NCBI RefSeq assembly: GCF_900199375.1
Contig: NZ_LT900217.1
Span: 2,418,001-2,482,000 of the forward strand
Source of the DNA: Gordonibacter urolithinfaciens
Lineage (GTDB): Bacteria; Actinomycetota; Coriobacteriia; Coriobacteriales; Eggerthellaceae
Direction of reading: 5' to 3'
Length of the DNA: 64,000 nt
The position numbers were made by a program, and so were the translations under genes. The notes under the pieces were generated by a model. That model made no database searches. It worked only from the letters and a program-made list of their open reading frames with translations, and was not told where the DNA came from. This document shows, piece by piece, positions 38,626 to 58,234 of the stretch (position 1 is the first letter of the stretch; the number at the start of each line of letters is the position of its first letter).

Positions 38626-38651
38626 GGCTCCTCCTCACCTGGTTCGTCTGA

Positions 38652-38690
38652 GCGTCGAGGGCCGCGGCCGTGCGGCGCGGCCCTCGACGC
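38652..38690 (-). other. Intercistronic hairpin
   Basis: A perfect 15-bp stem (GCGTCGAGGGCCGCG / CGCGGCCCTCGACGC) fills the 70-base gap between the transhydroxylase small-subunit gene and the next molybdoenzyme gene. No T-tract; it could set relative expression. Confidence 0.65.
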
Positions 38691-38695
38691 GGGGT

Positions 38696-39520: not shown

Positions 39521-39524
39521 ATCC

Positions 39525-42696: not shown

Positions 42697-44196
42697 ATGA
42701 CACCTTATTCACCTGCGGAAACAGCTTCAACCGAGACAAGGACGCCCGATGATCTGCGCCTGACCTACGTCCTTGCCACCATCGGCTTCGCGTTCCTCAT
42801 CGGGTGGGAGCTGTCGGCCACCTTCAGTCCCTCCCTCGCCCTCCTCGGGTTCTGCGATGTGCGGGAGGCCACGGCCCTGCGCATCGTGTCGGTGCTGACG
42901 CTGGCGGCCACGTTCGCGTTCTGCGCATGGAAGGCCGATTGGGCTTTCGAGAACCGCAACCGCCTGTTTGCCATCGGCTCGCTGCTCGCGCTCGCGGCGG
43001 TGGCGAACGCGTTCGTGAACACGGCGTTCGCGGGCATCCCGCTTGCCGTCTCGGTGGTCTCCTGGGCCCTGTTCGGCGTTGCCCAGGGAAGCATCATGAT
43101 GTACTGGTGCGTGTTCTTCAGCCTGATTCCCACCCGGCGTACCGCGGTGGCCATCGGGCTGGGCTCCATCGGGGGCACGCTGCTGTTCGTCTTTGCCAAC
43201 GCCTCGGACACCCAGTGGCTCAACCTGTCGGAGATCACGCTGTTCATCGTGGGGTCGGTGGGGTTGGCGGCCTACCTTTCCACGCGCATCCCCGCCGAGC
43301 GCATCCTGCCCGTGGGGGCATTTCGCCGCACGAAGGTGCTGACGGTGCCGGCCGCGCTGTCGGTTGCCAGCCAGGGGGCGGTGTACGGGTTCATGGCCAT
43401 CGAGCTGTGCTCCATGGGCCAGGAGGTGGCCGTCATCGGGGGCGCGAGCGGGCTGGTGGGCACGCTGGTGGCGCTTCTGTGGGCGGTGCTCGGGTCCAAG
43501 GTGGACGTGGACATGGCGGTCGTCCAGCGCATCTCGCTGCCCGTCCTCATGGCCGGCATGCTGCTGTTTCCGTTCTTCGACGGGCCGGGGCGGGTGGTGT
43601 GCGGCGGCATGATCATCGCCGCGCTCGCGCATTCGACCATCGTGGGATGGTGCACCACGAGCATCGACAACTACGAGTTCCGGCTGCATCCGGTGGATCG
43701 GTTCGCCCTGCGCCAGACCCCCAGCTACCTGGGTTTCCTGGCCGGGTCGGCGGTGGCCTACCTCGCGGTGTTCGCGTATCCGCTTGCGGGGACGCAACTC
43801 GACCTGCTGATGGTGGCGTTCGCCTTGGTGCTGGTCGTGGCGTTCTGCGTGTACGGGGGCGACGACGCCCAGGTGCGGAAGCGGTTGAACGAGCTGCTGG
43901 CGCCTCCTGCCGCGGAACGGGCTCTCGAAGCCGCAGGGGATGCCGGTGCCGACCAGTCGGGGCCTGGCTTCTTCAGGAAACGCTGCGAGCTCGTGGCCCA
44001 GCGCTACGGCCTTACGCCGCGCGAGGAGGAGGTGTTCCTGCTGCTGGCCAAGGGGCGCAACGCCGAGCACATCGCCGAGCAGCTGGTGGTGAGCCCGGCC
44101 ACGGCCAAGTCCCACATCTACCACATCTACCGCAAGCTTGATATCAGCTCGCAGCAGCATCTCATGAACATCGTGGAGGACTACGACGGGGAATAG
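42697..44196 (+). CDS. LuxR-family regulator with multi-pass membrane N-terminus
   Basis: A 499-residue protein: about 12 hydrophobic helices arranged like an MFS carrier (residues 20-390), a short linker, and a C-terminal LuxR/GerE HTH (LTPREEEVFLLLAKGRNAEHIAEQLVVSPATAKSH). This architecture is abundant in Eggerthellaceae, where members beside catechol-dehydroxylase genes sense their substrates. It is divergent from the transhydroxylase operon and probably controls it, with the membrane half as the sensor. The start follows GGAGCGGGG. Confidence 0.92.
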   Translation: MTPYSPAETASTETRTPDDLRLTYVLATIGFAFLIGWELSATFSPSLALLGFCDVREATALRIVSVLTLAATFAFCAWKADWAFENRNRLFAIGSLLALAAVANAFVNTAFAGIPLAVSVVSWALFGVAQGSIMMYWCVFFSLIPTRRTAVAIGLGSIGGTLLFVFANASDTQWLNLSEITLFIVGSVGLAAYLSTRIPAERILPVGAFRRTKVLTVPAALSVASQGAVYGFMAIELCSMGQEVAVIGGASGLVGTLVALLWAVLGSKVDVDMAVVQRISLPVLMAGMLLFPFFDGPGRVVCGGMIIAALAHSTIVGWCTTSIDNYEFRLHPVDRFALRQTPSYLGFLAGSAVAYLAVFAYPLAGTQLDLLMVAFALVLVVAFCVYGGDDAQVRKRLNELLAPPAAERALEAAGDAGADQSGPGFFRKRCELVAQRYGLTPREEEVFLLLAKGRNAEHIAEQLVVSPATAKSHIYHIYRKLDISSQQHLMNIVEDYDGE

Positions 44197-44371: not shown

Positions 44372-45784
44372 TTACAGGCCCATGACCCCCACGATGAACG
44401 GCATCCAGGCGGCCATGATGAGCACGAGGGCCACCGAGGGCACGATGCCGGTCTTGAACATGTCGCCGAAGGTGTAGTAACCCTCGCCGTAGGTCAGCAT
44501 GACCGTGGGGTTCACGGGCATGAGGTAGTTGCCCGCAACGACCACGGCCAGCGCGATGGTGGGCACGGCCGGCGACACGCCGAAGCCGGCGCACAGCGCG
44601 ATCATGATGGGCAGGAAGATGCCCAGGATGGCCACGCCGATGGGGCACACGGTGTGCAGCAGGTAGATGAGCGCGAGCAGGAGCGCGAAGGCTGCGAAGA
44701 AGCCCAGGTCCATGACGCCGCTGCCCGAGATGGCTCCGGCGAGGAACGCCGCGCCGCCCGTGGCCTCCACCACGCCGCCCATGGACATGATGGTGCCGCA
44801 CATGATGACGATGCCCCACGGCACGGAGCCCTGGAACTCCTTCCAGGTGAGCAGGTCCATGCCCGGCAGGAACATGACGGTCAGGCCGATGAGGGCGACC
44901 ACCGTGGCGTTGAGGACGGGAACCCAGTTGCCCACGATCCACAGCACCAGCATGGCGCCGATCACGAGGATGGCCTTCACCTCGTAGGCCTCGATCTTCT
45001 TGGCGCCGGCGGCCTGGTCGCGGATGCCCTGCAGGCAGGAGTCGGCGATGGGCTCGGGCTTGAGGATGGCCGTGATGAAGAACCAGCAGATGGGCGTCAT
45101 GATGATGACGACGGGCAGGGCGACGAGCACCCAGTCGAGGAACGAGATGGAAGTGCCGGTGGCCTGCTGCAAAATGTTCATGGCCACGACGTTGAACGAG
45201 CTGCCGGCAGGCGTGGCCATGCCGCCGGTGACGGCGGCGATGGGGATGCCGATCATGAGGCAGCGGCCCAGGTTCGACTGCAGCGGCTTGGCATCGGCGG
45301 CCTTGAGGATGGTGAGCGCGAAGCCCAGGAACAGCACCGTGCAGGGCACGTCGGACATGACCGTGGACACGAGCGTGGTGGCGCACATGAAGCCCAGCAC
45401 GAGCTTGCGCGAGTTGGCGCCGGTCCAGCCTATGAGCGCGTTGATGAGGCGCACGCCCCAGTTCGTCTTGAGCATGATGACGGGCATCGAGAACACCGCG
45501 ATGATGAAGAGCAGCGCGGGGCTGGCGAAGCCGCCGATGGCCTTGCCCAGGTTGTCGACCACGCCGAGCACCGGGCACAGCACGACGACGAGCAGGGCGG
45601 TGGCGCCCAGGGGCAGGGCCGAGGTGACCCACAGCGCCACGAGCGCGCCCAGGATGCCGAGCGCGGTGGCTCCTTGGTGCGAGAGGGCCTCGGAGCCCGG
45701 AACCAGGAAGCCGATGGCGAGGCAGACAATCGCCAATCCTATCCCGATCAGGCGTTTTGCCATTGGAACGTTGGTGTTTTCCAT
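44372..45784 (-). CDS. DASS/SLC13-type anion transporter
   Basis: A 470-residue membrane protein of the divalent anion:Na+ symporter family, with about 11-12 helices, an N-terminal GATALGILGALVALWVTSALPLGATALLV region, the first substrate/Na+ loop ATPAGSSFN and the second MPVNPTVML. Members carry dicarboxylates, tricarboxylates or sulfate. Start follows AAGGAGGTACAACGC. It is divergent from an MFS gene, and the shared region contains the 17-bp motif also found in front of the acyl-CoA operon, so it may import that pathway's acid. Confidence 0.9.
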   Translation of the reverse strand: MENTNVPMAKRLIGIGLAIVCLAIGFLVPGSEALSHQGATALGILGALVALWVTSALPLGATALLVVVLCPVLGVVDNLGKAIGGFASPALLFIIAVFSMPVIMLKTNWGVRLINALIGWTGANSRKLVLGFMCATTLVSTVMSDVPCTVLFLGFALTILKAADAKPLQSNLGRCLMIGIPIAAVTGGMATPAGSSFNVVAMNILQQATGTSISFLDWVLVALPVVIIMTPICWFFITAILKPEPIADSCLQGIRDQAAGAKKIEAYEVKAILVIGAMLVLWIVGNWVPVLNATVVALIGLTVMFLPGMDLLTWKEFQGSVPWGIVIMCGTIMSMGGVVEATGGAAFLAGAISGSGVMDLGFFAAFALLLALIYLLHTVCPIGVAILGIFLPIMIALCAGFGVSPAVPTIALAVVVAGNYLMPVNPTVMLTYGEGYYTFGDMFKTGIVPSVALVLIMAAWMPFIVGVMGL

Positions 45785-45924: not shown

Positions 45925-45941
45925 CAAATACGTATGTTGCA
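45925..45941. promoter_or_regulatory. Shared 17-bp motif, copy 1
   Basis: CAAATACGTATGTTGCA, with an ATACGTAT palindrome at its core, lies between the divergent DASS and MFS genes. An exact inverted copy occurs at 48699-48715 between lysR and the acyl-CoA operon. A binding site for the LysR protein at 47624 is the likeliest reading. The remaining 45785-46180 shows no gene, only looser echoes such as CTTCAACATCTGCATAC. Confidence 0.6.
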
Positions 45942-46180: not shown

Positions 46181-47536
46181 ATGGACTACGAGGCGCGACA
46201 AGGGGAGGCGGGCGCGGCACCCGCTGCGGCGGCGCGGGGCGCGAGGCCGAAGAAGCTGTTCTATGGCTATATCTTGATCCCCGTGCTGGGGTTCATGTAC
46301 TTCTGCTCTTCGGGCATCGTTTTGCCCACGGCCACCATCGTCAACCCGCTCATGCTCCAAGATGCGTCGCTTGGCATGAACGCCACCATGCTGGGAACGG
46401 GTTTTTCGCTGTTCGTGCTGGTGCAGGGGCTCTCGGCACCGCTCGTGGGGGCGCTCATCGCGAAGAAGGGCGCCCGGTTCAGCATGGCGCTCGGTGCAGC
46501 GGTCATGCTGCTGGCCATGCTCGCGCTGATATTCCTCGTGTCCTCGCCGGTGGCGTACTTCCTGGTGTTCGGCATCGTGACGAGCGCCGCCACCATGATG
46601 GTGGGCCAGCTGGCCGTGCAGAGCACGATCGGCGACTGGTTCGTGGCGCGCCGCGGCGTCGCCATGACCGCCATGATGGTTCTGGGAGCGAGCGCGTCGT
46701 TCGTGGGGCCGCCCGTCGTGAACGCCATCGTGGGCGCAACGGGCGGTACGTGGCGCAGCGGCTGGTACCTGCTGGTGGGCCTGAGCGCGGCGCTCATCCC
46801 CGTGGCGCTTCTGCTTGTGAAGAACAAGCCTGCCGACCTGGGGCAGCATCCCGACGGCGTCGCCGACCCGAGTGTGCTCGGCGGTAGCGGCAAGGGCTTC
46901 AAGGTGTACAAGAACACCGACGCCGTGCCGTTCAAGCGCGTGGCGAGGACACCGGCCTTCTGGCTCATCTCGCTGGCGGCCACGGGCGGGTTCGCGTCGT
47001 ATACGCTGGCCACCTCGCAAAGCGCCCTGCACTTCTCCTCGCTCGGCTTCGACAGCGGGCTTGTGGTGGCGGGCGTGGCCGTCATGGGCGGTGTCAGCCT
47101 GCTGGGCAAGCTCCTTCTGGGCATGGTGTCCGACCGCATCGAGCCCATCAGGCTCATCGTGGCGTCCACGGTGATCTTGGTCGTGGGCATCCTGGCCGGC
47201 GCGGCGGCGCAGAACGAGGCGATGCTCTTCGCGTTCTACGTATGCGTGGGCTTCGGGTTCGGCGGCGTCAATGCCGTGTTTCCCACGGCCATGGCCAACT
47301 ACTTCGGGGCCTCGTCGTTCTCCAAGAACCTGGGCACGGGCATCATGATCACCACGGTGGTGGCCTCTGCGCTGCCCATTGCGAGCGGAGCCGTGTTCGA
47401 TGCGACGGGGACCTGCACGATCGCGTTCTACCTCACGGCGGGCATCGTCGCCGCGTGCGCGGCGTGCGGGCTCTTCGTGCGGATTCCGCGCTGCGATACG
47501 GAGACGGAGGCGGCGGTGGAAGCGGTTGCGCAGTAA
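46181..47536 (+). CDS. MFS transporter
   Basis: A 451-residue, 12-helix major facilitator protein with a basic N-terminus (GARPKKLFYGYILIP) and DRIEPIRLI in the loop after TM8. It is akin to the OFA (oxalate/formate antiporter-like) branch by overall look. ATG follows AGGGAGGCGGC. Divergent from the DASS carrier and followed by the convergent lysR gene. It may import or export an organic acid of the neighbouring CoA pathway. Confidence 0.88.
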   Translation: MDYEARQGEAGAAPAAAARGARPKKLFYGYILIPVLGFMYFCSSGIVLPTATIVNPLMLQDASLGMNATMLGTGFSLFVLVQGLSAPLVGALIAKKGARFSMALGAAVMLLAMLALIFLVSSPVAYFLVFGIVTSAATMMVGQLAVQSTIGDWFVARRGVAMTAMMVLGASASFVGPPVVNAIVGATGGTWRSGWYLLVGLSAALIPVALLLVKNKPADLGQHPDGVADPSVLGGSGKGFKVYKNTDAVPFKRVARTPAFWLISLAATGGFASYTLATSQSALHFSSLGFDSGLVVAGVAVMGGVSLLGKLLLGMVSDRIEPIRLIVASTVILVVGILAGAAAQNEAMLFAFYVCVGFGFGGVNAVFPTAMANYFGASSFSKNLGTGIMITTVVASALPIASGAVFDATGTCTIAFYLTAGIVAACAACGLFVRIPRCDTETEAAVEAVAQ

Positions 47537-47623: not shown

Positions 47624-48598
47624 TCAGGCGTCGGCGGGGGCATCCGCCGAGCGGAACCGCTCGGCGTGCTCCCGTAGAAGCTCGGCAAAGTACTCGAGGT
47701 CGGGGCGTCCGGGGTCGCTGTCCATGAGCGCGAAGGCGTCCACGTAGCGCTTCTTATCCGCGAAGGGAAGGATGACCACATGCTGCTTGAGCATGTCGGA
47801 CATGAGGGGCTTGTACTTCCGGTCCACCTTGGTGAGCAGGTGGATGCCGTCGCCTGGGTCGGTGGCGTAGAATTCCAACGGGTTGTCGGTGGGAACGAGC
47901 GTGATGTTGGGATAGAAGCCCACCTCGCGGCACAGCGCGATGAAGTCCTCGCGGAACCGCTCGCTGTAGCGGTTTGCCTGCAGGATGAAGCGGGATTGCG
48001 CAAGGTCGGCAAGCGAGAGCTGCCCCTTGGCCGCCAGCGGCGAGGTGCGCGAGACGCCGGCCACGAGCTCGCCGTGGAACTCGGGAATCCAGATGGCCTC
48101 CACCGAGTCGGACACATGGAGCTCCGTGGGCGGGTTCTCGGAGATGATGGTCTCGAAGGCGACGTCCACCTTGCCGGCATCCACCATCTGCTGCCCGCCC
48201 AGCCCGGAGTTGTCCATGTTGACGAACTCCACGCGCAGCCCGGCGAAGCGCTCCTTGGCGCGGGCGACGACCTCGTTGATGCCCACGTAGAGCGCGTTGG
48301 TGTGCAGCAGGTCGAGGATGAGGATGCGATCGCTGCCGCCCGCAGGAAGCGCGCGCAGCTCGGCGAGCATGTTCGCCTGGTCGCCGATGATCTTGCCCGC
48401 ATGCTTGAGCACCACCTCGCCGGCTGCCGTGAGGCTCAAAGGACGGGTGTCGTAGAAGAGCCGGCATCCCAGGTCGTTGGAGAGGGCGTTCATGTGCCGG
48501 CTCAGCGAGGGCTGCGACATGTTCAGGTCGCGGGCGGCCGACACGAAGCTCTTGTGGGCGGCGAGCGCCATGAATTCCCGGTACACCTCGATGTCCAT
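47624..48598 (-). CDS. LysR-family transcriptional regulator
   Basis: A 324-residue LysR-type regulator: N-terminal winged HTH (FMALAAHKSFVSAARDLNMSQPSLSRHMNALSNDLGCRLF) and a C-terminal substrate-binding fold. ATG at 48598 is chosen because the family begins MDIEVYREFM; the frame runs further upstream without similarity. It is divergent from the acyl-CoA operon and probably activates it in response to a pathway acid or CoA ester. The 17-bp motif lies 100 bp upstream. Confidence 0.92.
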   Translation of the reverse strand: MDIEVYREFMALAAHKSFVSAARDLNMSQPSLSRHMNALSNDLGCRLFYDTRPLSLTAAGEVVLKHAGKIIGDQANMLAELRALPAGGSDRILILDLLHTNALYVGINEVVARAKERFAGLRVEFVNMDNSGLGGQQMVDAGKVDVAFETIISENPPTELHVSDSVEAIWIPEFHGELVAGVSRTSPLAAKGQLSLADLAQSRFILQANRYSERFREDFIALCREVGFYPNITLVPTDNPLEFYATDPGDGIHLLTKVDRKYKPLMSDMLKQHVVILPFADKKRYVDAFALMDSDPGRPDLEYFAELLREHAERFRSADAPADA

Positions 48599-48698: not shown

Positions 48699-48715
48699 TG
48701 CAACATACGTATTTG
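48699..48715. promoter_or_regulatory. Shared 17-bp motif, copy 2
   Basis: TGCAACATACGTATTTG is the exact reverse complement of the motif at 45925-45941. It lies between lysR and the acyl-CoA dehydrogenase gene, 148 bp before the latter. Apart from this the region 48599-48862 shows no other clear feature. Confidence 0.6.
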
Positions 48716-48862: not shown

Positions 48863-50008
48863 ATGGACTTCAAGAAGACCGAGGAGCAGGAGCTTCTGCT
48901 CGACAGCCTGAAAACCGTCATGGAGCGGGGCAACTTCGAGGACTACTTCAAGGAGTGCGACCGCAACCACGAATACCCCCAGAAGGCCGTGGACGCCCTT
49001 GTGGAGGCCGGCTTTACCACCCTCGGCATTCCCGAGGAGTTCGGCGGCACGCCCACCGACACGCTCACCCAGGTCATGGTGGCCGAGGAGGCGCACGCGC
49101 TGGGCTACCCGTCGCTGTGCTGGATCAACTTCGCCACCGAGGTTGACGACATCCTCACGTTCGGCAGCAAGGAGCAGCAGGAGAAGATCTTGGGGTATGC
49201 GCTGGAGGGCAGGAAGCCCTTCACGCTCGGCTTCACCGAGTCGCAGGCGGGCTCTGACAGCGCCGCCATGGCCACCACGGCCACGAAGCGCGACGGCAAG
49301 GTGTACATAAACGGCAACAAGACGTTCAACACGAGCGCCGACCGCGCACCCTACATGCTGTGCGTGTGCCGCAGCGGCGTGAACGAGAGCCCCTACAAGG
49401 ACTTCAGCATGTACCTGTTCCCGATGGACCGCCCGGGCGTGGCCATCGAGAAGCTGGATAAGATCGGCAACAACATGTGCGGCACCTACGAGGTGCACCT
49501 CGATGACGTGGAGTGCGAGGAGGCCGACCTGGTGGGCGAGGAGTGCAAGGGCTTCTACCAGCTCATGAAGAACTTCGAGGTGGAGCGGCTGACCATCTGC
49601 GCCGCCAACGTGGGCATGGCCCGCTGCGCGTACGACGAGGCCCTGCGCTACGCCGCCCAGCGCATGCAGTTCGGCAAGACCATCGGCAGCTTCCAGCTTG
49701 TCCAGGAGAAGCTCGTGGACATGCGCATAAAGATAGAGAACATGCAGAACCTGCTGTACAAGACCGCGTGGAAGAAGGACAACGGCGAGTCCATCATGAT
49801 CGACTCGTCGCTCGTGAAACGCTACACCGGGCAGGCCGCCTTCGAGGTCATCGACGACGCCCTGCAGATCATGGGCGGCATCGGCTACACGCACGACTGC
49901 CGCATCTCGCGTTTGTGGCGAGACCAGCGCGTCTACCGCATCATGGCGGGCACCGAGGAGATCATGGTGCACACCGCCGGCCGCGCGCTCATCAAGGAAG
50001 TGCAGTAG
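48863..50008 (+). CDS. Acyl-CoA dehydrogenase, CaiA-like enoyl-CoA reductase
   Basis: A 381-residue FAD enzyme of the acyl-CoA dehydrogenase family. FTESQAGSDSAAM is the flavin/substrate loop; MQFGKTIGSFQLVQEKLVDM and MGGIGYTHDCRISRLWRD are family blocks. It most resembles CaiA (crotonobetainyl-CoA reductase): same length, KADNG-type insert (KKDNGES), and the same C-terminal pattern ending in GRALIK, where the usual catalytic Glu site reads MAGTEE. With FixABCX encoded in the same operon it likely runs as a reductase of a 2-enoyl-CoA, using the acid as electron acceptor. Crotonobetaine, cinnamate-type or other acids are possible. Confidence 0.88.
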   Translation: MDFKKTEEQELLLDSLKTVMERGNFEDYFKECDRNHEYPQKAVDALVEAGFTTLGIPEEFGGTPTDTLTQVMVAEEAHALGYPSLCWINFATEVDDILTFGSKEQQEKILGYALEGRKPFTLGFTESQAGSDSAAMATTATKRDGKVYINGNKTFNTSADRAPYMLCVCRSGVNESPYKDFSMYLFPMDRPGVAIEKLDKIGNNMCGTYEVHLDDVECEEADLVGEECKGFYQLMKNFEVERLTICAANVGMARCAYDEALRYAAQRMQFGKTIGSFQLVQEKLVDMRIKIENMQNLLYKTAWKKDNGESIMIDSSLVKRYTGQAAFEVIDDALQIMGGIGYTHDCRISRLWRDQRVYRIMAGTEEIMVHTAGRALIKEVQ

Positions 50009-50041
50009 AACGCCCCATCGACGAGAAGGGATTCGCGAACC

Positions 50042-50803
50042 ATGAACATCGTGGCATGCTACAAGATAGTCCCCGATGCCCAGGACATCGAGGCCGGCGC
50101 CGACGGGGCCCTGCGCCTCGACCGCGCGCAGTGGGTGCTCGGCGAGTACGACCTGGTGGCCATCGAGGCGGCGGCGCAGCTGGCCGCCGCCACCGACGGG
50201 AGCGCCGTGCTGCTCTCCGCCGGGGGCGAGAAGCTGAACGACACGAAGCTCGTGAAGGCCGCCTTGTCGCGCGGGGCCGACGAGCTGTACCGCGTGGTGG
50301 ACCCGGCGCTCGAGGACGCCGATGCGTTCCAGACGGCCTCGGTGCTGGCCGCGGCGCTGCGCAAGATCGATTTCGACCTCGTGGTCTGCGGCGAGGGATC
50401 GGCTGACCGGTACTCCCAGCAGGTGGGCCTGCTCGTGGGCGCGCTGCTGGGCCTGCCCGTGGTGAACGCAGCGGGCAGCGTGCGCGCCGAGGGCGGCGCG
50501 CTTTCGGTGGAGCGCGTGCTGGAGAACGAGGTGGAGGTGCTCGAGATCGCGCCGCCGGCCGTGGTGTCCATGACCTCCGATGCCGCGCTTCCGCGCATCC
50601 CGCAGCTCAAGGACATCCTCGCCGCGGGCAAGAAGCCCGTGACCACGTGGAGCCTCGACGAGGTGGGGGGCATGCCCGAAAGCCCGGTGGAGACGGTTTC
50701 CGTGAAGGCGCCCGCGAGCATCGCGCGCAAGGGAATCGTGCTCGAAGGGGCGACGGACGAGAATATCGGCGAGCTGGTGTCCGGCATCCGGGCATCGCGG
50801 TAA
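50042..50803 (+). CDS. fixA: Electron transfer flavoprotein beta subunit, FixA
   Basis: A 253-residue ETF beta-type protein (NIVACYKIVPDAQDIE; DLVVCGEGSADRYSQQVG; LPRIPQLKDILAAGKKPV). It pairs with FixB and, through FixC and FixX in the same operon, passes electrons to the acyl-CoA reductase. FixABCX complexes can bifurcate electrons. ATG lies 33 bases after the upstream gene. Confidence 0.92.
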   Translation: MNIVACYKIVPDAQDIEAGADGALRLDRAQWVLGEYDLVAIEAAAQLAAATDGSAVLLSAGGEKLNDTKLVKAALSRGADELYRVVDPALEDADAFQTASVLAAALRKIDFDLVVCGEGSADRYSQQVGLLVGALLGLPVVNAAGSVRAEGGALSVERVLENEVEVLEIAPPAVVSMTSDAALPRIPQLKDILAAGKKPVTTWSLDEVGGMPESPVETVSVKAPASIARKGIVLEGATDENIGELVSGIRASR

Positions 50804-50817
50804 GGCAGGGGGAGAGC

Positions 50818-51762
50818 ATGAGTGCATTGAGCAAGGTATGGGTGGTGAGCGAGGCTCCCGAGCGCTTCGCCGCGCTCGGCGCCGTGGGCCGTCGGCTGGG
50901 CGAGCGGGTCGAGGCCGTGGCCGTGGGCGAGGGCGCGGCGCAGGCGGCCGCAAGCTGCGGGGCCGAGGCCGTCTATACGGTCGCGGTTCCCGAGGGCGGC
51001 CTGGTGGAGGACTGCGCGGCGGCGATTGCCGGCGCGGCGGGGGAGCACGCTCCGCGCGCCGTGCTGTTCGCCGCGGGCAAGCGCACGCGGCTCATGGCGG
51101 CGCGCGTGGCTGCGGAGCTGGGCACGCGGGTGCTGAACGACGTGGGGCGCATCTGGGTGGACGATGACGGCGCCCTGCTGGCCGAGCACATGGTGTACGG
51201 CGGCAAGGCGTTCGCCGTCGAGCGGGTGCGGGAGGGCTGCGCGGTGGCCCTGCTCGCCGAGGGCCTGCTGGTTTCCGAGCCGGTCGTCGAAGGCGCCGCG
51301 CAGGAAGCGGCGGTTTCGGAGCTGCCGGCCGCGTCCGCTGCGGCATCGGCGAGGCTCGTCGAGCGCAGGCCGCGCACGGTGGAGCCCGTGAACCTCGCGG
51401 CCGCACGGCGCGTGGTGAGCGTGGGGCGCGGCGTGGCTGCGCAGGAGGACCTTGCGCTCGTGGACGAGCTGGCCGCCGCGCTCGAGGCCGAGGTGGGCTG
51501 CACGCGCCCCGTGGCCGAGGGGTCGGGCTGGATGGCGCGCGAACGCTACATCGGCGTGTCGGGCGCCCTGCTCAAGCCCGACCTGTTCGTGGCCGTGGGC
51601 CTGTCGGGCCAGATCCAGCATATGGTGGGCGCTAACAGCGCCAAGACCATCGTGGCCGTCAACAAGGACAAGAACGCCCCGGTGTTCAAGCAGTGCGACT
51701 ACGGTATCGTGGCCGACCTGTACGAGGTGCTGCCCAAGCTCTCGGCCGCGCTCGGGGTGTAA
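50818..51762 (+). CDS. fixB: Electron transfer flavoprotein alpha subunit, FixB
   Basis: A 314-residue ETF alpha-type protein. The C-terminal FAD domain is clear (GRGVAAQEDLALVDELA, ERYIGVSGALLKPDLFVAVGLSGQIQHMVGANSAKTIVAVNKDKNAPVFKQCDYGIV), while the N-terminal domain is more divergent and Ala-rich. ATG at 50818 follows GGGGGAGAGC, fifteen bases after fixA. Forms the FixAB heterodimer. Confidence 0.92.
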   Translation: MSALSKVWVVSEAPERFAALGAVGRRLGERVEAVAVGEGAAQAAASCGAEAVYTVAVPEGGLVEDCAAAIAGAAGEHAPRAVLFAAGKRTRLMAARVAAELGTRVLNDVGRIWVDDDGALLAEHMVYGGKAFAVERVREGCAVALLAEGLLVSEPVVEGAAQEAAVSELPAASAAASARLVERRPRTVEPVNLAAARRVVSVGRGVAAQEDLALVDELAAALEAEVGCTRPVAEGSGWMARERYIGVSGALLKPDLFVAVGLSGQIQHMVGANSAKTIVAVNKDKNAPVFKQCDYGIVADLYEVLPKLSAALGV

Positions 51763-51785
51763 GGCGCCGCACCGCGGCAAACCGC

Positions 51786-51810
51786 GCCGGGCGGCAGCGA
51801 GCCGCCCGGC
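51786..51810 (+). other. Intercistronic hairpin
   Basis: GCCGGGCGGC / GCCGCCCGGC with a 5-base loop lies between fixB and the hotdog gene. No T-tract; may protect the upstream mRNA. Confidence 0.5.
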
Positions 51811-51841
51811 CATTCCGACCGATAGCAAGGAGGATCAAACC

Positions 51842-52300
51842 ATGGACCAGGAGTTTTTCGCGGGTTTGGCCAAGAACGTGAGCGATGGGCCCACCCCCTT
51901 CGTCAACATGGCCCAGCTGCAGGCGGAGGCCGTGGAGGAGCGCCACGTGAGGCTGCGCCTCCCCGTGGCCGAACGCCACTTGAACCACGTGGGCATCGCC
52001 TACGCCGGCAGCGAGTTCGTGCTGGCCGAGATAGCAGGCGGCACGCTGTTCATGGCCACCTACGGCACCGACGAGTTCGTGCCCATCTTGAAGGGGGTGG
52101 AGCTCAGGTTCCTGAAGCCCGGCACGAAGGACCTCGTGGTCGATCTGTCGCTCACCGAGGAGGAGGCCGAGCAGAAGATCGCCCCCGTGCGCGAGCGCGG
52201 TCGCGGCGACTACTTCCTGGAGATACCGGTGTTCGACGTGGACGGCGAGCAGGTGGCGCAGATGGACTTCAACTACTACGCGCTTCCCGCCAAGAAATAA
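51842..52300 (+). CDS. Hotdog-fold protein, DUF4442/YiiD-like thioesterase
   Basis: A 152-residue protein with the hotdog pattern of DUF4442/YiiD C-terminal domains: HLNHVGIAYAGSEFVLAEIAGG and a strand-rich remainder. It probably hydrolyses or binds acyl-CoA. The AAGGAGG before the ATG at 51842 is strong. In this operon it could release the reduced acid from CoA. It has no counterpart in the classical cai or fix operons. Confidence 0.75.
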   Translation: MDQEFFAGLAKNVSDGPTPFVNMAQLQAEAVEERHVRLRLPVAERHLNHVGIAYAGSEFVLAEIAGGTLFMATYGTDEFVPILKGVELRFLKPGTKDLVVDLSLTEEEAEQKIAPVRERGRGDYFLEIPVFDVDGEQVAQMDFNYYALPAKK

Positions 52301-52321
52301 CCTGCGGCCGCAGTGGGCCAT

Positions 52322-52339
52322 GCGCGCCCGCGGGCGCGC
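52322..52339 (+). other. Intercistronic palindrome
   Basis: GCGCGCCCGCGGGCGCGC, a perfect 18-base palindrome, lies 16 bases before the next gene's ATG and close to its ribosome site. Confidence 0.4.
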
Positions 52340-52354
52340 CGAGAAGGAGGAGGC

Positions 52355-53728
52355 ATGTGTATGAAGCGCTATGATGCAATCGTGATAGGGGCGGGCATCG
52401 GCGGCCTCGCGGCCGCGCTGCTGCTCGCCGAGAGCGGCAGGAGCGTTGTGCTCTTGGAGAAGCGCAACCAGCCGGGCGGGCGCATAGGCTCGTCGAGGCG
52501 CGATGGCTTCACGGTGGATTTCGGCGTCCACCTGATCTCGCGCGGCGAGAAGGGCCCGCTCGTCCAGCTTCTGGAGCGCTGCGGTGTTGAGCACGGCATC
52601 GAGTTCACCAAGGTACGTCCCATCCAGACCACGGGCGGGGAGAGCTTCAAGTTCCCGCACGACCTCAAGGGGCGCGTGCCCGACGCCGACTTCGAGGCCG
52701 TCATCAAGATGGTCGCCGATGTCAAGGGCATGAGCGACGAGGAGACGCATGCGCTCGACGGGCAGACGCTCGAGGAGTTCCTGAGCACCTATACCACCGA
52801 CCCGTTCGTGCATGCCTGCGTGAGCCAGGTGGGCTTCATCTACTGCTGCATCCCCGAGTACCGCCTGTCGGCCGGCGAGTTCGCCCGCTGCCTCAAGTGG
52901 GAGGCCGAGGCGCGCTCTTCGGGATACCCGACAGGCGGGTGCGTGTCCATCATGGAAGCGTATCTGGCGGGACTCGGGCGCTATGGCGTGGACGTGCGCT
53001 TCGGCGTGCCGGTGGACAAGGTGCTGGTGGAGGACGGCCGGGCCGTGGGCGTGGTGGCGGGCGGCGAGGAGCTCCGCGCCGATATGGTCGTGTCGAACGC
53101 AGGTATCAAGGAGACGGTGCGCGACCTCGTGGGCGAGAACGCCTTCGACGCCGAGTACGTGCGCTACGTGGAGGGCTTGGAGATATCGTTCGTGTCGATC
53201 ATCGCGCGCTTCGCGCTCGACACGGTCATCAGCCCCGATATCAAGATGCTCTCGGGCTTCTCGTCGGTGCCCGTGAAGGAGTACAACGACCGTCTGATGA
53301 GGGGCGAGGTGCCCGAGGAGCTGAACTCGTTCATCGTGGTTCCCTCGAGCTTCGACCCGTCGGTGGCTCCCGCGGGCAAGCAGCTCGTCATGATGACCAC
53401 GGCGGTGCCGGCCGGCATCAAAGACGAGTACTGCCCGGCTATCCTCGACGCGCTCGTGGCGTTGGCCGAGGAGCATTTCCCCGGCCTGCAGGAGCATGCG
53501 CTGTTCGTGGAGCGGGTGTACCCCTCCGACGCCGCGCGCATCATGGGCGAGGACGGCGCGGGCATCGGCATCGCCCAGCAGGCAGGGCAGGCCGGCGTCG
53601 ACAGGCCTCCCATCAAGACGCCCCTCGAAGGGCTCTACATCGTGGGTGCCGAGGCGGGCGGCTCGGGGGTGGGCACGGAGCTTGCCGTGAACAGCGCCAT
53701 CGAGTTCTTCGACACCTACGTGGCGTAA
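52355..53728 (+). CDS. FAD-dependent oxidoreductase, CrtI/phytoene desaturase-like
   Basis: A 457-residue flavoprotein. Dinucleotide fold at the N-terminus (IVIGAGIGGLAAALLLAESG) followed by LEKRNQPGGRIGS, and a C-terminal FAD motif (GLYIVGAEAGGSGVGTELAVNSA). The overall plan is that of CrtI-type desaturases and related isomerases. ATG at 52355 follows GAAGGAGGAGGC. It is an unexpected member of a cai/fix-like operon and may act on the substrate carbon skeleton before or after reduction, or as an extra redox link. Confidence 0.82.
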   Translation: MCMKRYDAIVIGAGIGGLAAALLLAESGRSVVLLEKRNQPGGRIGSSRRDGFTVDFGVHLISRGEKGPLVQLLERCGVEHGIEFTKVRPIQTTGGESFKFPHDLKGRVPDADFEAVIKMVADVKGMSDEETHALDGQTLEEFLSTYTTDPFVHACVSQVGFIYCCIPEYRLSAGEFARCLKWEAEARSSGYPTGGCVSIMEAYLAGLGRYGVDVRFGVPVDKVLVEDGRAVGVVAGGEELRADMVVSNAGIKETVRDLVGENAFDAEYVRYVEGLEISFVSIIARFALDTVISPDIKMLSGFSSVPVKEYNDRLMRGEVPEELNSFIVVPSSFDPSVAPAGKQLVMMTTAVPAGIKDEYCPAILDALVALAEEHFPGLQEHALFVERVYPSDAARIMGEDGAGIGIAQQAGQAGVDRPPIKTPLEGLYIVGAEAGGSGVGTELAVNSAIEFFDTYVA

Positions 53729-53768
53729 GGGAAATCGTCCGTCCAGGATTCGCAAAGGAGATGGTTCC

Positions 53769-55010
53769 ATGGCAAAGCATGCCGACATACCGGAGTTCGG
53801 GAACCTGCAGGGCGTGAAGGTGGTGGTGTCGGCCGTCTCGACGGCCGGCCCCTTCGCCGGGGAGCTGTTCGCCGAGAACGGCGCCGACGTCATCTGGCTC
53901 GAGCCGCCCCGCGGTATCGACCCCTACCGTTGGACGCAGGACGGCTGGGGCGTGCAGAACGAGCGCCGGAACATGCGCAACCTCATGCTCGACGTCGTCT
54001 CGCCGGAGGGTCATGACGTGTTCCTGAAGCTCGTCGAGACCGCCGACATCTTCATCGAGGCTTCGCGCGGCGGGCAGTGGGAGAAGTGGGGCTATACCGA
54101 CGAGCTTCTGTGGGAGCATAACCCGAAGCTGGTCGTCGGCCACATGTCGGGCTACGGCCTCACGGGCGACCCCGCCTACGTGAGCCTTCCCGGCTACGAC
54201 TTTACCGTGAACGCGTTCTCGGGCCTCATGTACCTGAACGGGTACAAGGACGGGGCGCCCTACATGATCCAGAAGTTCGTGACCGACTACTACGCCGGCC
54301 TGTTCGCCTACGGCTCGGCGCTCGCGGCCTACGTGGGAGCGTTGCGCACGGGCAGGGGCGAGAGCTTCGATTTGGCCCAGTACGAGGCGGCCGTGCGCTG
54401 TCAGGCGGGCCTGTTCTGCAAGTGGTTCGACAAGCAGGTGCAGGAGGAGCGCGGCGCCGGGGCCCCGCGCGACAACATCTCCGCGGGCGCGGGCTACTAC
54501 GAGTGCGCCGACGGCGAGGGCGTGTACCTGTTCACGGCCGGCCAGTCCACCACGAAGAAGGCTGTCGAGTTCTTCGGGCTGGAGTACGGAAGCGAGCTCT
54601 TCCCCGAGGGCATACCGTCGGTGGGCATCGACTCGCCGGGCGCGCCCGTGTTCGACGGTGCCATCGAGCAGTACTGCGCCGAGCACACGGCTGCCGAGTT
54701 CGCCGAGGCCATGGCCGGCATCGGTATACCGTGCTCCGTGGTCATGAACTACGAGATGATGGAGAGCCACCCGCACTACCTGGCGCGCGGCACGTGGACC
54801 GAGTGGGACACGGTGGACGGTCGCACGGTGAAGGGCGTGGCGTCGGTGCCGCGCTTCAAGAACAACCCGTCGCAGATCTGGCGCGGCTGCCCCTCGCAGG
54901 GCATGGACAACGACGACGTGCTGGCGGAAATCGGCTTCGACAAGGGGGAGATTGCGGCGTTCTACGAGAAGGGCATCCTGCGCAAGACCGATTACGTGGG
55001 CGGGCTGTGA
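53769..55010 (+). CDS. Class III CoA-transferase, CaiB-like
   Basis: A 413-residue member of the CaiB/BaiF family. Asp173 (VTDYYAGLFA) aligns with the catalytic Asp169 of formyl-CoA transferase, and SGYGLTGDPAY plus LRTGRGE are conserved. Length is near that of CaiB (405). It should move CoA from a product acyl-CoA to the incoming acid, avoiding ATP cost per turnover. ATG follows AAAGGAG; TGA overlaps the start of the ligase gene. Confidence 0.9.
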   Translation: MAKHADIPEFGNLQGVKVVVSAVSTAGPFAGELFAENGADVIWLEPPRGIDPYRWTQDGWGVQNERRNMRNLMLDVVSPEGHDVFLKLVETADIFIEASRGGQWEKWGYTDELLWEHNPKLVVGHMSGYGLTGDPAYVSLPGYDFTVNAFSGLMYLNGYKDGAPYMIQKFVTDYYAGLFAYGSALAAYVGALRTGRGESFDLAQYEAAVRCQAGLFCKWFDKQVQEERGAGAPRDNISAGAGYYECADGEGVYLFTAGQSTTKKAVEFFGLEYGSELFPEGIPSVGIDSPGAPVFDGAIEQYCAEHTAAEFAEAMAGIGIPCSVVMNYEMMESHPHYLARGTWTEWDTVDGRTVKGVASVPRFKNNPSQIWRGCPSQGMDNDDVLAEIGFDKGEIAAFYEKGILRKTDYVGGL

Positions 55011-56566
55011 TGGCGTCGCTCGTCTCGCTGCTGGACGAATCGGCGCGGGCCTATCCCGATCAGGTGGCCCTGTGCTTCCGCGGCCGGGAGTTCACGTACC
55101 GGGAGATGCGCCGGCGCGTCGATGCGCTTGCCGGCGCCCTTGCGGGGCTCGGGGTGGGCAAAGGGGGCTTCGCCGCCGTCGTCTCGGCCAACTCGAACGT
55201 GACGGTGGAGGTGCTGTTCGCCTGCGCCCGTTTGGGGGCGGTGTGCGAGCGCTACAACGTGAGGCTCTCGCCGCGGGTCATAGCCCGGCTGCTTGCCCGG
55301 TCCGAGGCGCGCGTGGCGTTCGTCTCGGCCGCCCTGCGCCCGGCTTTGGCCGAGGCGCTGGGCGAGGTCGGCCGACCGCTCACGATCGTGGACATCGACG
55401 GCGGGGAGGGCGCCGCAGCCGTCGGCGGCGCGGGCACGGAGCACGGCGGCGTGCTGCGCTACGAGGAGCTGCTCGCTTCCGCCGGCCCGGTGCCGAGCGT
55501 ATGCGACGTGGACGACGGCGATCCGGCCATGCTGCTGTACACGAGCGGCACGACGGGGCTGCCGCGCGGCGTGCTGCTTTCACATGGCGCGCTGACCAGG
55601 CGCGTCGCTATCGATATTGCAGGCATGCGCTTCTCGCACGACGATATCCTGCTATGCGAGCTGCCGCTGTTCCACGTCACGTTCGTCTCGACGCTCGCCA
55701 CGCTGGCGCTGGGTGCGCGCCTGGTGATAGCCGATTCGCACAAGCCGGCCGACATCGCCGCGGACATCGTGCGCACGGGTGCCACGCGCACGGCTCTCGT
55801 GCCGTGCCTCATGCGCGGGCTCGCCGACTACGTGGCGCAGGAGGGCATCGAGCTGGCCACGCTCGAGCTCATCATCTACGGTGGCGAGCCGGTGGAGCCG
55901 GAGCTCCTGGAGCACTGCCGCCGTCTTCTGCCCTGCGGGTTTCTCCAAGGCTACGGCATGACGGAAACGACGGCGGCCATAACCATGCTGCTTCCCGAGC
56001 ACCACGAGCATGCGCGGCTTCTGCCCACGGTGGGAAAGGCGGTGCCGGGCATGGAGATACGGATCGCCGACGACGAGGGGCGCGCCTGTGCCGCGGGGGT
56101 TCCCGGCGAGGTGCTCGTGCGAACCGACACGCTGATGCTCGGCTATTACCGCGACCCCGTGCGCACGGCCGAGGCGGTGCGGGACGGGTGGTATCGCACG
56201 GGCGATATCGGCGTGTTGGACGCGGAGGGCTTCCTCACGTTGGTGGATCGCAAGAACAACCTGGTCATATCGGGGGGCGAGAACGTGTATCCCCTCGAGG
56301 TGAGCCGGTGCATCAAGGCGCTTGCCGGGGTGGCCGACGCTGTGGTCGCGGGAGTGCCCGACAAGCAGTGGGGCGAGTCGCTGGCTGCGTTCGTGGTGCG
56401 TGCCGAAGGGTCGCGCATCTCGGAGGCCGACATCGTGGCGCACTGCGCGCGCGAGCTGGGCGGCTACAAGAAGCCGCAGGCCGTGCGCTTCGTGGACGAT
56501 CTCGGGCGCAGTGCCTCGGGCAAGGTGCCGCGCGAGCGGCTGGAGGAGCTCAAGAGGCTGCTGTAA
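55010..56566 (+). CDS. Acyl-CoA ligase, CaiC-like (AMP-forming)
   Basis: A 518-residue ANL-family ligase with the P-loop LLYTSGTTGLPRG, GYGMTETT, GWYRTGDIG and the catalytic Lys of SGKVPRERL at the end. It makes the first acyl-CoA to prime the CoA-transferase cycle, as CaiC does. ATG overlaps the caiB-like stop (TGATG), so the two are translationally coupled. Confidence 0.88.
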   Translation: MASLVSLLDESARAYPDQVALCFRGREFTYREMRRRVDALAGALAGLGVGKGGFAAVVSANSNVTVEVLFACARLGAVCERYNVRLSPRVIARLLARSEARVAFVSAALRPALAEALGEVGRPLTIVDIDGGEGAAAVGGAGTEHGGVLRYEELLASAGPVPSVCDVDDGDPAMLLYTSGTTGLPRGVLLSHGALTRRVAIDIAGMRFSHDDILLCELPLFHVTFVSTLATLALGARLVIADSHKPADIAADIVRTGATRTALVPCLMRGLADYVAQEGIELATLELIIYGGEPVEPELLEHCRRLLPCGFLQGYGMTETTAAITMLLPEHHEHARLLPTVGKAVPGMEIRIADDEGRACAAGVPGEVLVRTDTLMLGYYRDPVRTAEAVRDGWYRTGDIGVLDAEGFLTLVDRKNNLVISGGENVYPLEVSRCIKALAGVADAVVAGVPDKQWGESLAAFVVRAEGSRISEADIVAHCARELGGYKKPQAVRFVDDLGRSASGKVPRERLEELKRLL

Positions 56567-56660
56567 CGCGCGGTTGGACGCGTGCGGCGCCTGGGCGGAC
56601 GCGCGCGACGCGACCGCGCCGTGCAATGCGAAGGCAACGATGAGAGGAGAGGATGCAGGC

Positions 56661-57947
56661 ATGGCGGATTTCGATGCCGTGGTCGTGGGGGCCGGTTGCG
56701 CCGGCTCCGTTGCGGCCTGCGTGCTTGCCCGCGAGGGCAAGAGCGTGCTCATGATAGAACGCGGCTCCGATGCCGGGGCGAAGAACATGACCGGCGGGCG
56801 CTTGTACGCCCATGCGCTAAGGACGGTGTTTCCCGATTTCGAGAGCGAGGCGCCCCTCGAGCGCAAGATCGTGCGGGAGCGGGTTTCCCTCATGACCGAG
56901 GACGAGAACACGACGGTGGAGTTCGCTTCGCCGCGCCTGGGGGCGGATGAGCTGGTCTCGTACTCGGTGCTGCGCGGGCCGTTCGACCGCTGGCTCGCTT
57001 CGAAGGCCGAAGGGGCCGGCGCGGAGTGCATCTACGGGATAGCCGTGGATGACCTCGTGTGGGAGGGCGAGCGCATCGTGGGCGTGCGCGCGGGCGATGA
57101 CGAGCTCACGGCCGACGTGACCATCCTGGCCGACGGCGCGAACTCGCTGCTGTCCGAGAAGGCGAGGCTCGCCAAGCGCCCGTCGCCGCACCAGCTGGCC
57201 GTGAGCGCCAAGGAGGTCGTGGAGCTACCCGAGCAGACCGTGACCGACCGCTTCCAGGCGAACCCCGGGGAGGGGGCGGCCTGGCTCTTCGCGGGGGCTG
57301 CGACGCATGGGCACGTGGGCGGCGGCTTCCTGTACACGAACCGCGCGTCCGTGTCCATCGGGGTCGTGGCCACTCTGTCCGACCTCTGCACGTCGTCGAC
57401 TCCGGTGTACCAGATGCTGGAGGACTTCAAGAACCATCCGGCCGTGGCGCCGGTGCTGGCCGGCGGGCGCACGGTGGAGTACTCGGGGCATCTCATCCCC
57501 GAGGGCGGTTTCAACATGGTGCCGGAGCTGTACCGCGACGGCTGCCTGCTTACGGGCGATGCCGCCATGCTCTGCATCAACCTGGGATACCAGGTGCGCG
57601 GCATGGACTACGCCATCGCGGCGGGCAGGATGGCGGCGGAGGCGGCCCTCGAGGCGCTGGACGCGGGCGACGTCTCGGCTGCGAGGCTCGCGGCGTACCG
57701 CGCCAAGCTGGAGGACAGCTTCGTCCTCAAGGACCTCGCGGCCTATCGCGGCTTCCCGGCGTTCATGGAGGGCACCCCGAGGATATTCGACGGGTACCCG
57801 CAGATGGCGGCCGACATCATGCGCGGCCTGTTCGCGGTGGACGGCTCGCCGGTGCAACCGCTTAAAGGAAAGGTCATGGGGCCGGTCAAGGGCGTGGGCG
57901 TGCTCAACCTGCTCAAGGATGTGCGAAAGGGGATGAGGGTCCTATGA
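56661..57947 (+). CDS. fixC: FixC-type electron-transfer flavoprotein dehydrogenase
   Basis: A 428-residue FAD protein of the ETF-quinone oxidoreductase/FixC group: AVVVGAGCAGSVAACVLAREGKSVLMIERG, KNMTGGRLYAHAL, and GCLLTGDAAMLCINLG. E. coli FixC is 428 residues. ATG at 56661 follows GGAGAGG; another at 56640 is less well placed. It takes electrons from quinol or acts in bifurcation with FixABX. Confidence 0.92.
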   Translation: MADFDAVVVGAGCAGSVAACVLAREGKSVLMIERGSDAGAKNMTGGRLYAHALRTVFPDFESEAPLERKIVRERVSLMTEDENTTVEFASPRLGADELVSYSVLRGPFDRWLASKAEGAGAECIYGIAVDDLVWEGERIVGVRAGDDELTADVTILADGANSLLSEKARLAKRPSPHQLAVSAKEVVELPEQTVTDRFQANPGEGAAWLFAGAATHGHVGGGFLYTNRASVSIGVVATLSDLCTSSTPVYQMLEDFKNHPAVAPVLAGGRTVEYSGHLIPEGGFNMVPELYRDGCLLTGDAAMLCINLGYQVRGMDYAIAAGRMAAEAALEALDAGDVSAARLAAYRAKLEDSFVLKDLAAYRGFPAFMEGTPRIFDGYPQMAADIMRGLFAVDGSPVQPLKGKVMGPVKGVGVLNLLKDVRKGMRVL

Positions 57948-58234
57948 TAGAGGTCTCGGTCAACGTCGACGAGAAGCTCGCTGTTGACAAGTTCGAGGTG
58001 GACGAGGGGAACCCGCACATCGTATTGCGCGAAGAGCCCGACCCGGCCGCGTTCGACAAGCTGGTGCTGTGCTGCCCGGCAGGGCTCTATCGGCGAGACG
58101 AGGAGGGCAGCCCGAGCTTCGACTGCGCGGGCTGCCTGGAATGCGGGACCTGCCGCATGCTCTGCGGCGACACCCTTCTCGAGAAGTGGGAGTTTCCCCA
58201 GGGGGGCATGGGCGTTTCGTACCGTTACGGGTGA
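57944..58234 (+). CDS. fixX: Ferredoxin-like FixX
   Basis: A 96-residue ferredoxin-like protein with C61-x2-C64-x2-C67-x2-C70-x3-C74 and the typical FixX tail (WEFPQGGMGVSYRYG). The ATG overlaps the fixC stop. It completes the FixABCX set. Confidence 0.92.
   Translation: MIEVSVNVDEKLAVDKFEVDEGNPHIVLREEPDPAAFDKLVLCCPAGLYRRDEEGSPSFDCAGCLECGTCRMLCGDTLLEKWEFPQGGMGVSYRYG

Follow-up and report, generated by a model that had tools for sequence, protein, structure and literature searches.

What does a gut actinobacterium do with an operon that resembles the carnitine system of E. coli and has no homologue of CaiD, CaiE or CaiT? The operon in question lies at 48863-58234 of a 64,000-nucleotide stretch of Gordonibacter urolithinfaciens DNA (contig NZ_LT900217.1, positions 2,418,001 to 2,482,000), which we call the window and from whose first letter the positions below are counted. 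An earlier note on this DNA had read it as a cai/fix-like operon for the anaerobic reduction of an enoyl acid, with crotonobetaine and cinnamate-like acids among the candidate substrates. Our analysis finds this reading likely in its general form, in which some unsaturated acid is reduced anaerobically. The analysis leads us to a narrower one, to which we give a probability of a little under 0.6: the operon would encode an enoate reductase that works in the cytoplasm on CoA thioesters and lets the cell respire anaerobically with a phenolic aryl-alkenoic (hydroxycinnamate-type) acid, its genes being regulated by a LysR protein together with that of a carrier. We are fairly sure of the class of mechanism, and we infer the substrate.

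An intact nine-gene operon

The nine genes are all open, intact and close-packed on the plus strand, and open reading frames, family profiles and key residues confirm the operon where the earlier note had placed it, gene by gene, in this order:

48863-50008, plus strand: acyl-CoA dehydrogenase (ACD), candidate enoyl-CoA reductase (family profiles, key residues, ACD relatives)
50042-50803, plus strand: FixA, electron transfer flavoprotein (ETF) beta (profiles, E. coli comparison)
50818-51762, plus strand: FixB, ETF alpha (profiles, E. coli comparison)
51842-52300, plus strand: DUF4442 hotdog protein, thioesterase-like (Pfam; nearest solved structure 1sh8)
52355-53728, plus strand: CrtI-like FAD protein (profiles, structure model)
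53769-55010, plus strand: CaiB-like family III CoA-transferase with Asp173 (profiles, key residue)
55010-56566, plus strand: AMP-forming acyl-CoA ligase (profiles, motifs)
56661-57947, plus strand: FixC, ETF:quinone oxidoreductase-like (profiles, E. coli comparison)
57944-58234, plus strand: FixX, ferredoxin-like (profiles, conserved Cys)

The ACD scores 546.7 bits against the YdiO model of NCBIfam, PRK12341, above its cut-off of 537, and 382 bits against the CaiA equivalog model, below its cut-off of 540. It has Glu241, at what we take to be the position of the catalytic Glu of isovaleryl-CoA dehydrogenase, and Ala362 at the usual catalytic site. FixA and FixB match ETF domains and fall short of the YdiQ and YdiR equivalogs (290 bits for a cut-off of 338, and 296 for 528), FixC exceeds PRK10015 (517.5 bits, cut-off 466), and FixX, at 127 bits below its cut-off of 166, keeps the four Cys that it has in common with YdiT and E. 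coli FixX. The CoA-transferase is a family III member (PF02515, 275 bits) with Asp173 in place, has E. coli CaiB as its nearest solved structure, and scores 373.8 bits against the CaiB equivalog, under the cut-off of 413; the ligase matches PF00501 (267.5 bits) with the AMP-ligase motifs in place.

The remaining two proteins are those inserted into the cai-like set. The hotdog protein matches DUF4442 (PF14539, 53.6 bits, cut-off 25), and both its profile and its structure model (predicted local distance difference test, pLDDT, 74.2) match 1sh8, which is titled a probable thioesterase; the model matches the malonyl-ACP decarboxylase MadB more weakly, and this family resemblance makes the protein a candidate thioesterase. 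The hotdog sequence scored against the profiles began one codon early, and that of FixC two codons early. The CrtI-like protein, with GAGIGG at residue 12, has the FAD amine-oxidase/CrtI fold with its GxGxxG motif and scores 82.6 bits against PF01593 (cut-off 19.8) and 122 bits against TIGR02734, below that model's cut-off of 238. Its structure model (pLDDT 90.9) is nearest to 3ka7 (Z 38.6, root-mean-square deviation, rmsd, 2.6 over 405), and also matches the gamma-carotenoid desaturase 4rep (Z 35.1, rmsd 3.1 over 440) and the polyunsaturated fatty acid isomerase 2b9w (Z 26.9, rmsd 3.5 over 398), with many amine oxidases among the matches. Likeness of fold does not settle the function, and the readings that we prefer are an isomerase or a second enoate reductase.

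Relation to the carnitine and ydi systems

With E. coli cai and fix the window shares the ACD (41% identity), the family III CoA-transferase (41%), the AMP ligase (28%) and FixABCX (39-57%), and by analogy the CaiB-type transferase, ligase and FixABCX together would follow cai logic. Profile searches bear out the cai-like set with inserted hotdog and CrtI-like genes that the earlier note had described, and its remark that CaiD, CaiE and CaiT are missing holds for the whole of 48863-58234. Unlike caiTABCDE-fixABCX of E. coli, where cai and fix are two operons, the window has a single operon, accompanied by LysR and DASS genes, with hotdog and CrtI-like genes in it and with proteins below the CaiA and CaiB cut-offs. 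Closer Cai homologues occur elsewhere in the same genome, at ~264.3-277.8 kb (loci L027 and L028), where we found a second set of CaiA, CaiB, CaiC, CaiD and FixABCX homologues. This CaiA is 61% identical to the E. coli protein and scores 711.6 bits (cut-off 540), CaiB scores 697.8 bits (cut-off 413), and CaiC and CaiD reach 46% and 40%, CaiD lying on the other strand (~268.4-269.2 kb). The earlier note had held that a complete carnitine set elsewhere, with this operon silent, would refute its reading. The first half of that condition largely holds: the set at ~264-278 kb has CaiA to CaiD and FixABCX and gave no match to CaiE or CaiT, and the whole genome gave 0 matches to the BCCT (CaiT-type, PF02028) carriers. 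A MaoC-like protein and an MFS carrier accompany it. Because the genome has these separate homologues, the operon is most likely not for crotonobetaine, which we dropped as a substrate, and it would most likely be a cousin of the carnitine system rather than the carnitine system itself.

There is a comparable likeness to the E. coli ydi operon. Besides the ACD and FixC scores above the PRK12341 and PRK10015 cut-offs, the ACD is 47% identical to YdiO, FixA and FixB 45%, FixC 51% and FixX 60% to their counterparts, and for FixB the 45% to ydi compares with 39% to the E. coli fix counterpart. The window differs from ydi in having a type III transferase and no YdiF match, a ligase just 25% identical to FadK, and extra genes. 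The accessible text of PMC9329746 gives the function of YdiQR as unknown. In a tree of 17 ACDs, the window ACD groups with Eggerthella-type sister ACDs and the ACD of a Gracilibacteraceae metagenome-assembled genome (MAG) with support of 1.0; within this group the MAG ACD falls next to the window clade, and not to that of the sisters, with support of just 0.12. CaiA, YdiO and the L095 ACD fall together (0.92), YdiO being nearer to CaiA than to the window ACD, and the window reductase lies on this tree outside both the CaiA and the YdiO branches.

Conservation of the operon

The survey covered 138 genomes of the family, with a threshold E of 1e-40 or better for the CrtI-like protein, which is present in 11 of them, nine at 74% identity or more and two at 47-49%. 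The operon occurs in nine of the 138, and in seven the full nine-gene order is complete (the window, L018, L021, L022, L023, L024, and L017 with a run of N in FixB); L020 leaves its contig inside FixC and L019 breaks inside the transferase gene. Since the same order is found again in other genera, it is not a matter of chance. At L019/L030 (Raoultibacter timonensis) the transferase match stops at 161 amino acids; next come a DASS fragment and a pyrogallol-hydroxytransferase-like gene that is split, an arrangement that could reflect either a rearrangement or an assembly fault. Relatives from other genera are 87-91% identical in the ACD, 86-89% in the transferase, 74-84% in the CrtI-like protein and 75-83% in the hotdog protein, with lower values for the ligase (49-66%) and FixB (53-69%), so that constraint seems weaker on the ligase and the ETF than on the enzymes that handle the acid. 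Within the 138 genomes, hotdog proteins of at least 75% identity are confined to the same nine.

More distant versions of the operon also exist. The Gracilibacteraceae MAG has the gene set (ACD 73%, hotdog 53%, CrtI-like 51%) in an operon that contains an extra PF03060 (FabK-like) gene and a DASS gene, and a Coriobacteriales MAG has the set in part. A sister operon in genome G063 has an ACD (70%), a hotdog protein (57%), transferase, ligase, FixABCX and a DASS gene (46%, of the MAG's subfamily), with no CrtI-like match. In Eggerthella-like genomes (L078, L079, L080), sister ACDs at 65-69% identity adjoin 2-hydroxyacyl-CoA dehydratase genes, enzymes of a kind that yields 2-enoyl-CoAs; the dehydratase subunits of L078 and L079 score 442 and 453 bits against the HadB model, below its cut-off of 750, L079 has an activator as well, and L080 was assigned by gene sizes and order only.

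A promoter element shared with a carrier gene

Upstream of the operon, the features that bear on its regulation are as follows:

48699-48714, plus strand: promoter element TGCAACATACGTATTT before the operon, TATAAT 22 nucleotides on
47624-48598, minus strand: divergent LysR regulator, start placed at an internal ATG (MDIEVYREF); the longest frame reaches 48721
46181-47536, plus strand: MFS carrier (Pfam MFS_1), below the cut-offs of the NCBIfam lactate and oxalate/formate models
45926-45941, minus strand: element TGCAACATACGTATTT before the DASS gene, TATAAT 22 nucleotides on
44372-45784, minus strand: DASS-family anion carrier (family search)

The start of LysR at 48598 is likely because the longest frame would cover the conserved promoter DNA and a relative begins at the matching Met. 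Alignment of the intergenic DNA of the nine loci revealed a common element in most of them, and TGCAACATACGTATTT occurs twice in the window as an exact match, at 48699 (plus) before the operon and at 45926 (minus) before the DASS gene, for an expectation of 0.01 at three mismatches. A scan of 15 genomes gave 23 sites with up to two mismatches; the reversed pattern, used as control, gave 4. Fifteen of the 23 have one mismatch or none, and every one of these belongs to this locus in the nine genomes that have the operon; there were 0 such sites in the six scanned genomes without it, four of which have the DASS gene, in one case with a stop in it. The eight sites with two mismatches comprise one at a locus, before the MFS gene of G089, and seven elsewhere, including one at 83 kb of the genome itself. 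A TATAAT or TATACT box stands exactly 22 nucleotides after the element at 16 of 16 sites measured in eight genomes; this count took 16 of the 17 distinct sites with up to three mismatches in the scanned loci, leaving out L024:7688 (three mismatches). The locus scan excluded L017 and L108 (G067), and the two exact sites of G067 come from the 15-genome scan.

Among the measured sites, the element precedes the operon and MFS or DASS genes. With three mismatches, it also precedes a molybdoenzyme gene in G089 (Gordonibacter sp. An230) and G054 (Eggerthella sinensis), that is, in two genera. The earlier note had suggested uptake by a DASS or MFS carrier, and the shared TGCAACATACGTATTT supports this by tying the window's DASS gene to the operon. 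The best reading is that the operon and the DASS carrier belong to one LysR regulon with the divergent LysR as candidate regulator, and from its position this LysR may be what binds the element.

Proposed mechanism and substrate

The following scheme can be envisioned. An anionic unsaturated acid would be imported by the co-regulated DASS carrier, or by the MFS carrier in other genera, and primed by the ligase as a CoA ester, after which the CaiB-like transferase would move CoA from reduced product to fresh substrate, limiting the ATP cost to priming. The ACD would reduce the alpha,beta double bond with electrons drawn from the quinone (quinol) pool via FixCX and then FixAB, and the hotdog protein would release trapped CoA. 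To make the acid fit the ACD, the CrtI-like flavoprotein would most likely move, isomerise or remove another double bond in it. LysR may sense the acid and turn on operon and carrier from one promoter type, and the ring of a hydroxycinnamate-type acid could then be dehydroxylated by the co-located molybdoenzymes.

The genome has just two ACDs by PF00441 and no PF00108 thiolase, for which the same search was positive in all 14 control genomes, so there is no evident route for the breakdown of an acyl chain. Activity only as a fatty-acid oxidation route, which the earlier note had named as another outcome that would overturn its reading, therefore looks unlikely, and we set it aside. Among the substrates that the note had listed, the cinnamate-like class appears to fit the neighbourhood best, and crotonobetaine finds no support.

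Molybdoenzymes and carriers around the operon

On the far side of the DASS gene lie three further features:

42697-44196: LuxR regulator divergent from the molybdoenzyme genes (neighbourhood reading)
39525-42146, minus strand: pyrogallol-hydroxytransferase-like molybdoenzyme (86% over 869 amino acids to the L101 enzyme, which has 4v4c as its nearest solved match)
36331-38625, minus strand: acetylene-hydratase-type molybdoenzyme of the catechol-dehydroxylase class (sequence comparison)

With their Fe-S subunits, all on the minus strand at 36331-42146, the two molybdoenzymes form a pair similar to that of L101, where one enzyme is nearest to pyrogallol hydroxytransferase (421 bits) and the other to acetylene hydratase (302 bits). 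The element-bearing molybdoenzyme of G054 is nearest to acetylene hydratase as well (258 bits), and the one in G089 shows 29-32% identity with the acetylene-hydratase-type enzyme of the window. One or the other of these two types is found near all nine loci. So is the DASS gene, at 65% identity or more (split in G086), with the MFS gene near seven; four other genomes, that of L101 among them, have this DASS gene and an MFS gene beside molybdoenzymes, without operon and without element. The genome has six DASS matches at E of 1e-60 or better, and each has a PF00384 match within 10 kb; at least four of the six, among the matches listed, have an acetylene-hydratase-type gene within that distance. 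This hints that DASS carriers serve the substrates of neighbouring molybdoenzymes, and it weakens the DASS gene as proof of a dicarboxylate substrate. DASS genes beside PF00384 molybdoenzymes were also seen at ~16-24 kb, 2044-2052 kb and 2654-2660 kb.

According to the accessible parts of the literature, catechol dehydroxylases are nearest to acetylene hydratase (PMC7028382), are flanked by LuxR regulators and MFS carriers (PMC12771579) and serve respiration (PMC7028382, PMC11585353). The molybdoenzymes, LysR, transporters and a LuxR apparently of the kind reported as 12-transmembrane, all adjoining the operon, recall the Gordonibacter and Eggerthella clusters of these enzymes, as far as the available text describes them (PMC7028382, PMC9734109, PMC11585353, PMC12771579, PMC11887054); unlike those clusters, the operon is predicted to work on CoA esters. 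The window's 764-residue molybdoenzyme is 85% identical to a second copy that lies at 16 kb of the genome, and its 90% relatives in G085 and G086 lie far from their CrtI operon. Gp Hcdh, which has 770 amino acids and two subunits by the accessible text of PMC11585353, and Gs Vadh were both considered as possible identities for it.

Weighing the readings

Several observations weigh against the reading that we favour, a LysR-regulated reductase of an aryl-alkenoic acid. The window's two copies of the element belong to the operon and the DASS gene, and none was seen ahead of the MFS gene or of either molybdoenzyme; in the two Adlercreutzia genomes (G028, G029) the operon site was the sole one found, and the related operons L036 and L077 lack the element at three mismatches. 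Those relatives of the DASS carrier that have a solved structure are by name citrate, dicarboxylate or phosphate carriers rather than carriers of phenolic acids, and the roles given to the CrtI-like and hotdog proteins come from family resemblance. With 69 PF00384 matches in the genome, some of them pieces of one gene, proximity of a molybdoenzyme is a weak argument by itself, and by an estimate from this genome chance would place one within 12 kb in about 4 cases of 10. More weight falls on the shared element, yet it reaches a molybdoenzyme in two genomes only.

Of the alternatives, the one that survives best, and that is still unlikely, keeps the same enoyl-CoA reductase machine and changes the substrate to an aliphatic unsaturated di- or tricarboxylate of the glutaconate, itaconate/mesaconate or aconitate type, with DASS exchanging the saturated product. 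It would account well for a DASS gene in the regulon, for DASS genes of another subfamily inside L036 and L077, and for the names of the solved relatives. It sits poorly with the molybdoenzymes beside all six DASS genes, with the Had-type dehydratases that accompany sister ACDs, and with an ACD that, judged by eye, seems to lack the Arg with which glutaryl-CoA dehydrogenase binds the carboxylate. An itaconate reductase, IrdA of Little et al. 2024, is cited in the accessible part of PMC12290011. We lean, tentatively and at rather less than even odds, to an aryl-alkenoic acid over an aliphatic dicarboxylate because the sister ACDs adjoin 2-hydroxyacyl-CoA dehydratases, as in routes through aryl- or branched 2-enoyl-CoAs, and because the element occurs before molybdoenzymes.

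It is a good deal less probable that the operon strips the side-chain hydroxyl from catechin-derived aryl-hydroxyvaleric acids by CoA activation, CrtI-assisted dehydration or isomerisation, and reduction by the ACD. Loci of similar make-up stand beside the operon in G089 and G054, which would suit such a role; the operon itself has no dehydratase family, and the LysR of the reported dehydroxylase need not be the window LysR. Oxidative use, in which the ACD dehydrogenates an acyl-CoA and FixABCX hands the electrons to menaquinone, is more improbable again: the chemistry of ACD and ETF is reversible in principle, and a distant CrtI homologue stands with beta-oxidation-like genes (some named by eye) in Dethiosulfatibacter, but the genome has no PF00108 thiolase, the operon has no hydratase or 3-hydroxyacyl dehydrogenase, and the thioesterase-like protein and CoA-transferase would give back the free acid. 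A crotonobetaine/carnitine reductase as in E. coli cai is the least credible of all, since its FixABCX and the structural closeness of the transferase to CaiB are outweighed by window scores below both Cai cut-offs, by CaiA and CaiB homologues elsewhere far above them, and by a genome without BCCT.

Returning to the reduction of a hydroxycinnamate-type acid, a bolder extension is possible, if doubtful: a respiratory pathway of gut Coriobacteriia not described before, in which one LysR regulon would link the uptake of an anion, the CoA-linked reduction of its side chain with the help of a CrtI-like double-bond isomerase or reductase, and ring dehydroxylation by a molybdoenzyme, such that one plant phenolic acid would serve twice as electron acceptor.

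Comparison with other systems

The loop of ligase, CoA-transferase, ACD and ETF recalls the caffeyl-CoA reductase-Etf system of Acetobacterium, whose genes we take to be CarABCDE, and among solved structures CarC (6fah) ranks second as a match to the window ACD. In the alignment the catalytic Glu of the window ACD stands at another site than that of CarC, and the Acetobacterium system is presumably a soluble bifurcating complex without FixCX, which the window has. A second likeness is to the phenyllactate/2-hydroxyisocaproate dehydratase (Fld/Had) pathways, given the sister ACDs in Had-like operons of Eggerthella relatives; unlike these, the window operon has no dehydratase and a transferase of another type.

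In the literature, mostly open-access, we found no earlier account of the operon or regulon and no published link of Eggerthella or Gordonibacter with an acyl-CoA dehydrogenase and FixABCX or electron transfer flavoprotein. The accessible part of PMC8364193 does not mention the operon, nor do the available portions of the five catechol dehydroxylase cluster papers cited above describe it. The E. coli ydi operon has no proven function, and the window offers an intact relative with a candidate regulator, a promoter element and a carrier. The agents and route of side-chain reduction of dietary phenolic acids are just partly known, and the promoter could serve as a reporter by which the inducer, and so probably the substrate, is found directly; the operon is also a tractable case for the role of CrtI-like flavoproteins in acyl-CoA metabolism. 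Shuttle plasmids for Gordonibacter (PMC9734109), heterologous expression in G. urolithinfaciens (PMC11887054) and a Gordonibacter gene knock-out (PMC11585353) have been published, by the accessible text of these papers.

Distant relatives of the operon genes

The distant CrtI homologues (47-49%; L037, L038, L040) adjoin CoA-transferases and ligases, with no Fix matches in the DNA covered. In L037 (Dethiosulfatibacter aminovorans), the neighbours of the homologue (47%) are two CaiB-like transferases, an HMG-CoA-synthase-like protein that has an OB domain, and genes named by eye as thiolase-like and crotonase-dehydrogenase-like, with no ACD match nearby. L038/L025 has an ACD and a ligase, then two CrtI-like genes alternating with two CaiB-like genes. 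Finally, L087 and relatives among L081-L092 have a large cluster, its families tested in L087 only, with CaiB-like, MFS and CaiD-like genes, a ligase fused to a metallo-beta-lactamase domain, an ACD at ~54-57%, an old-yellow-enzyme-type flavoprotein, FixAB, and sigma-54 with a sigma-54 activator.

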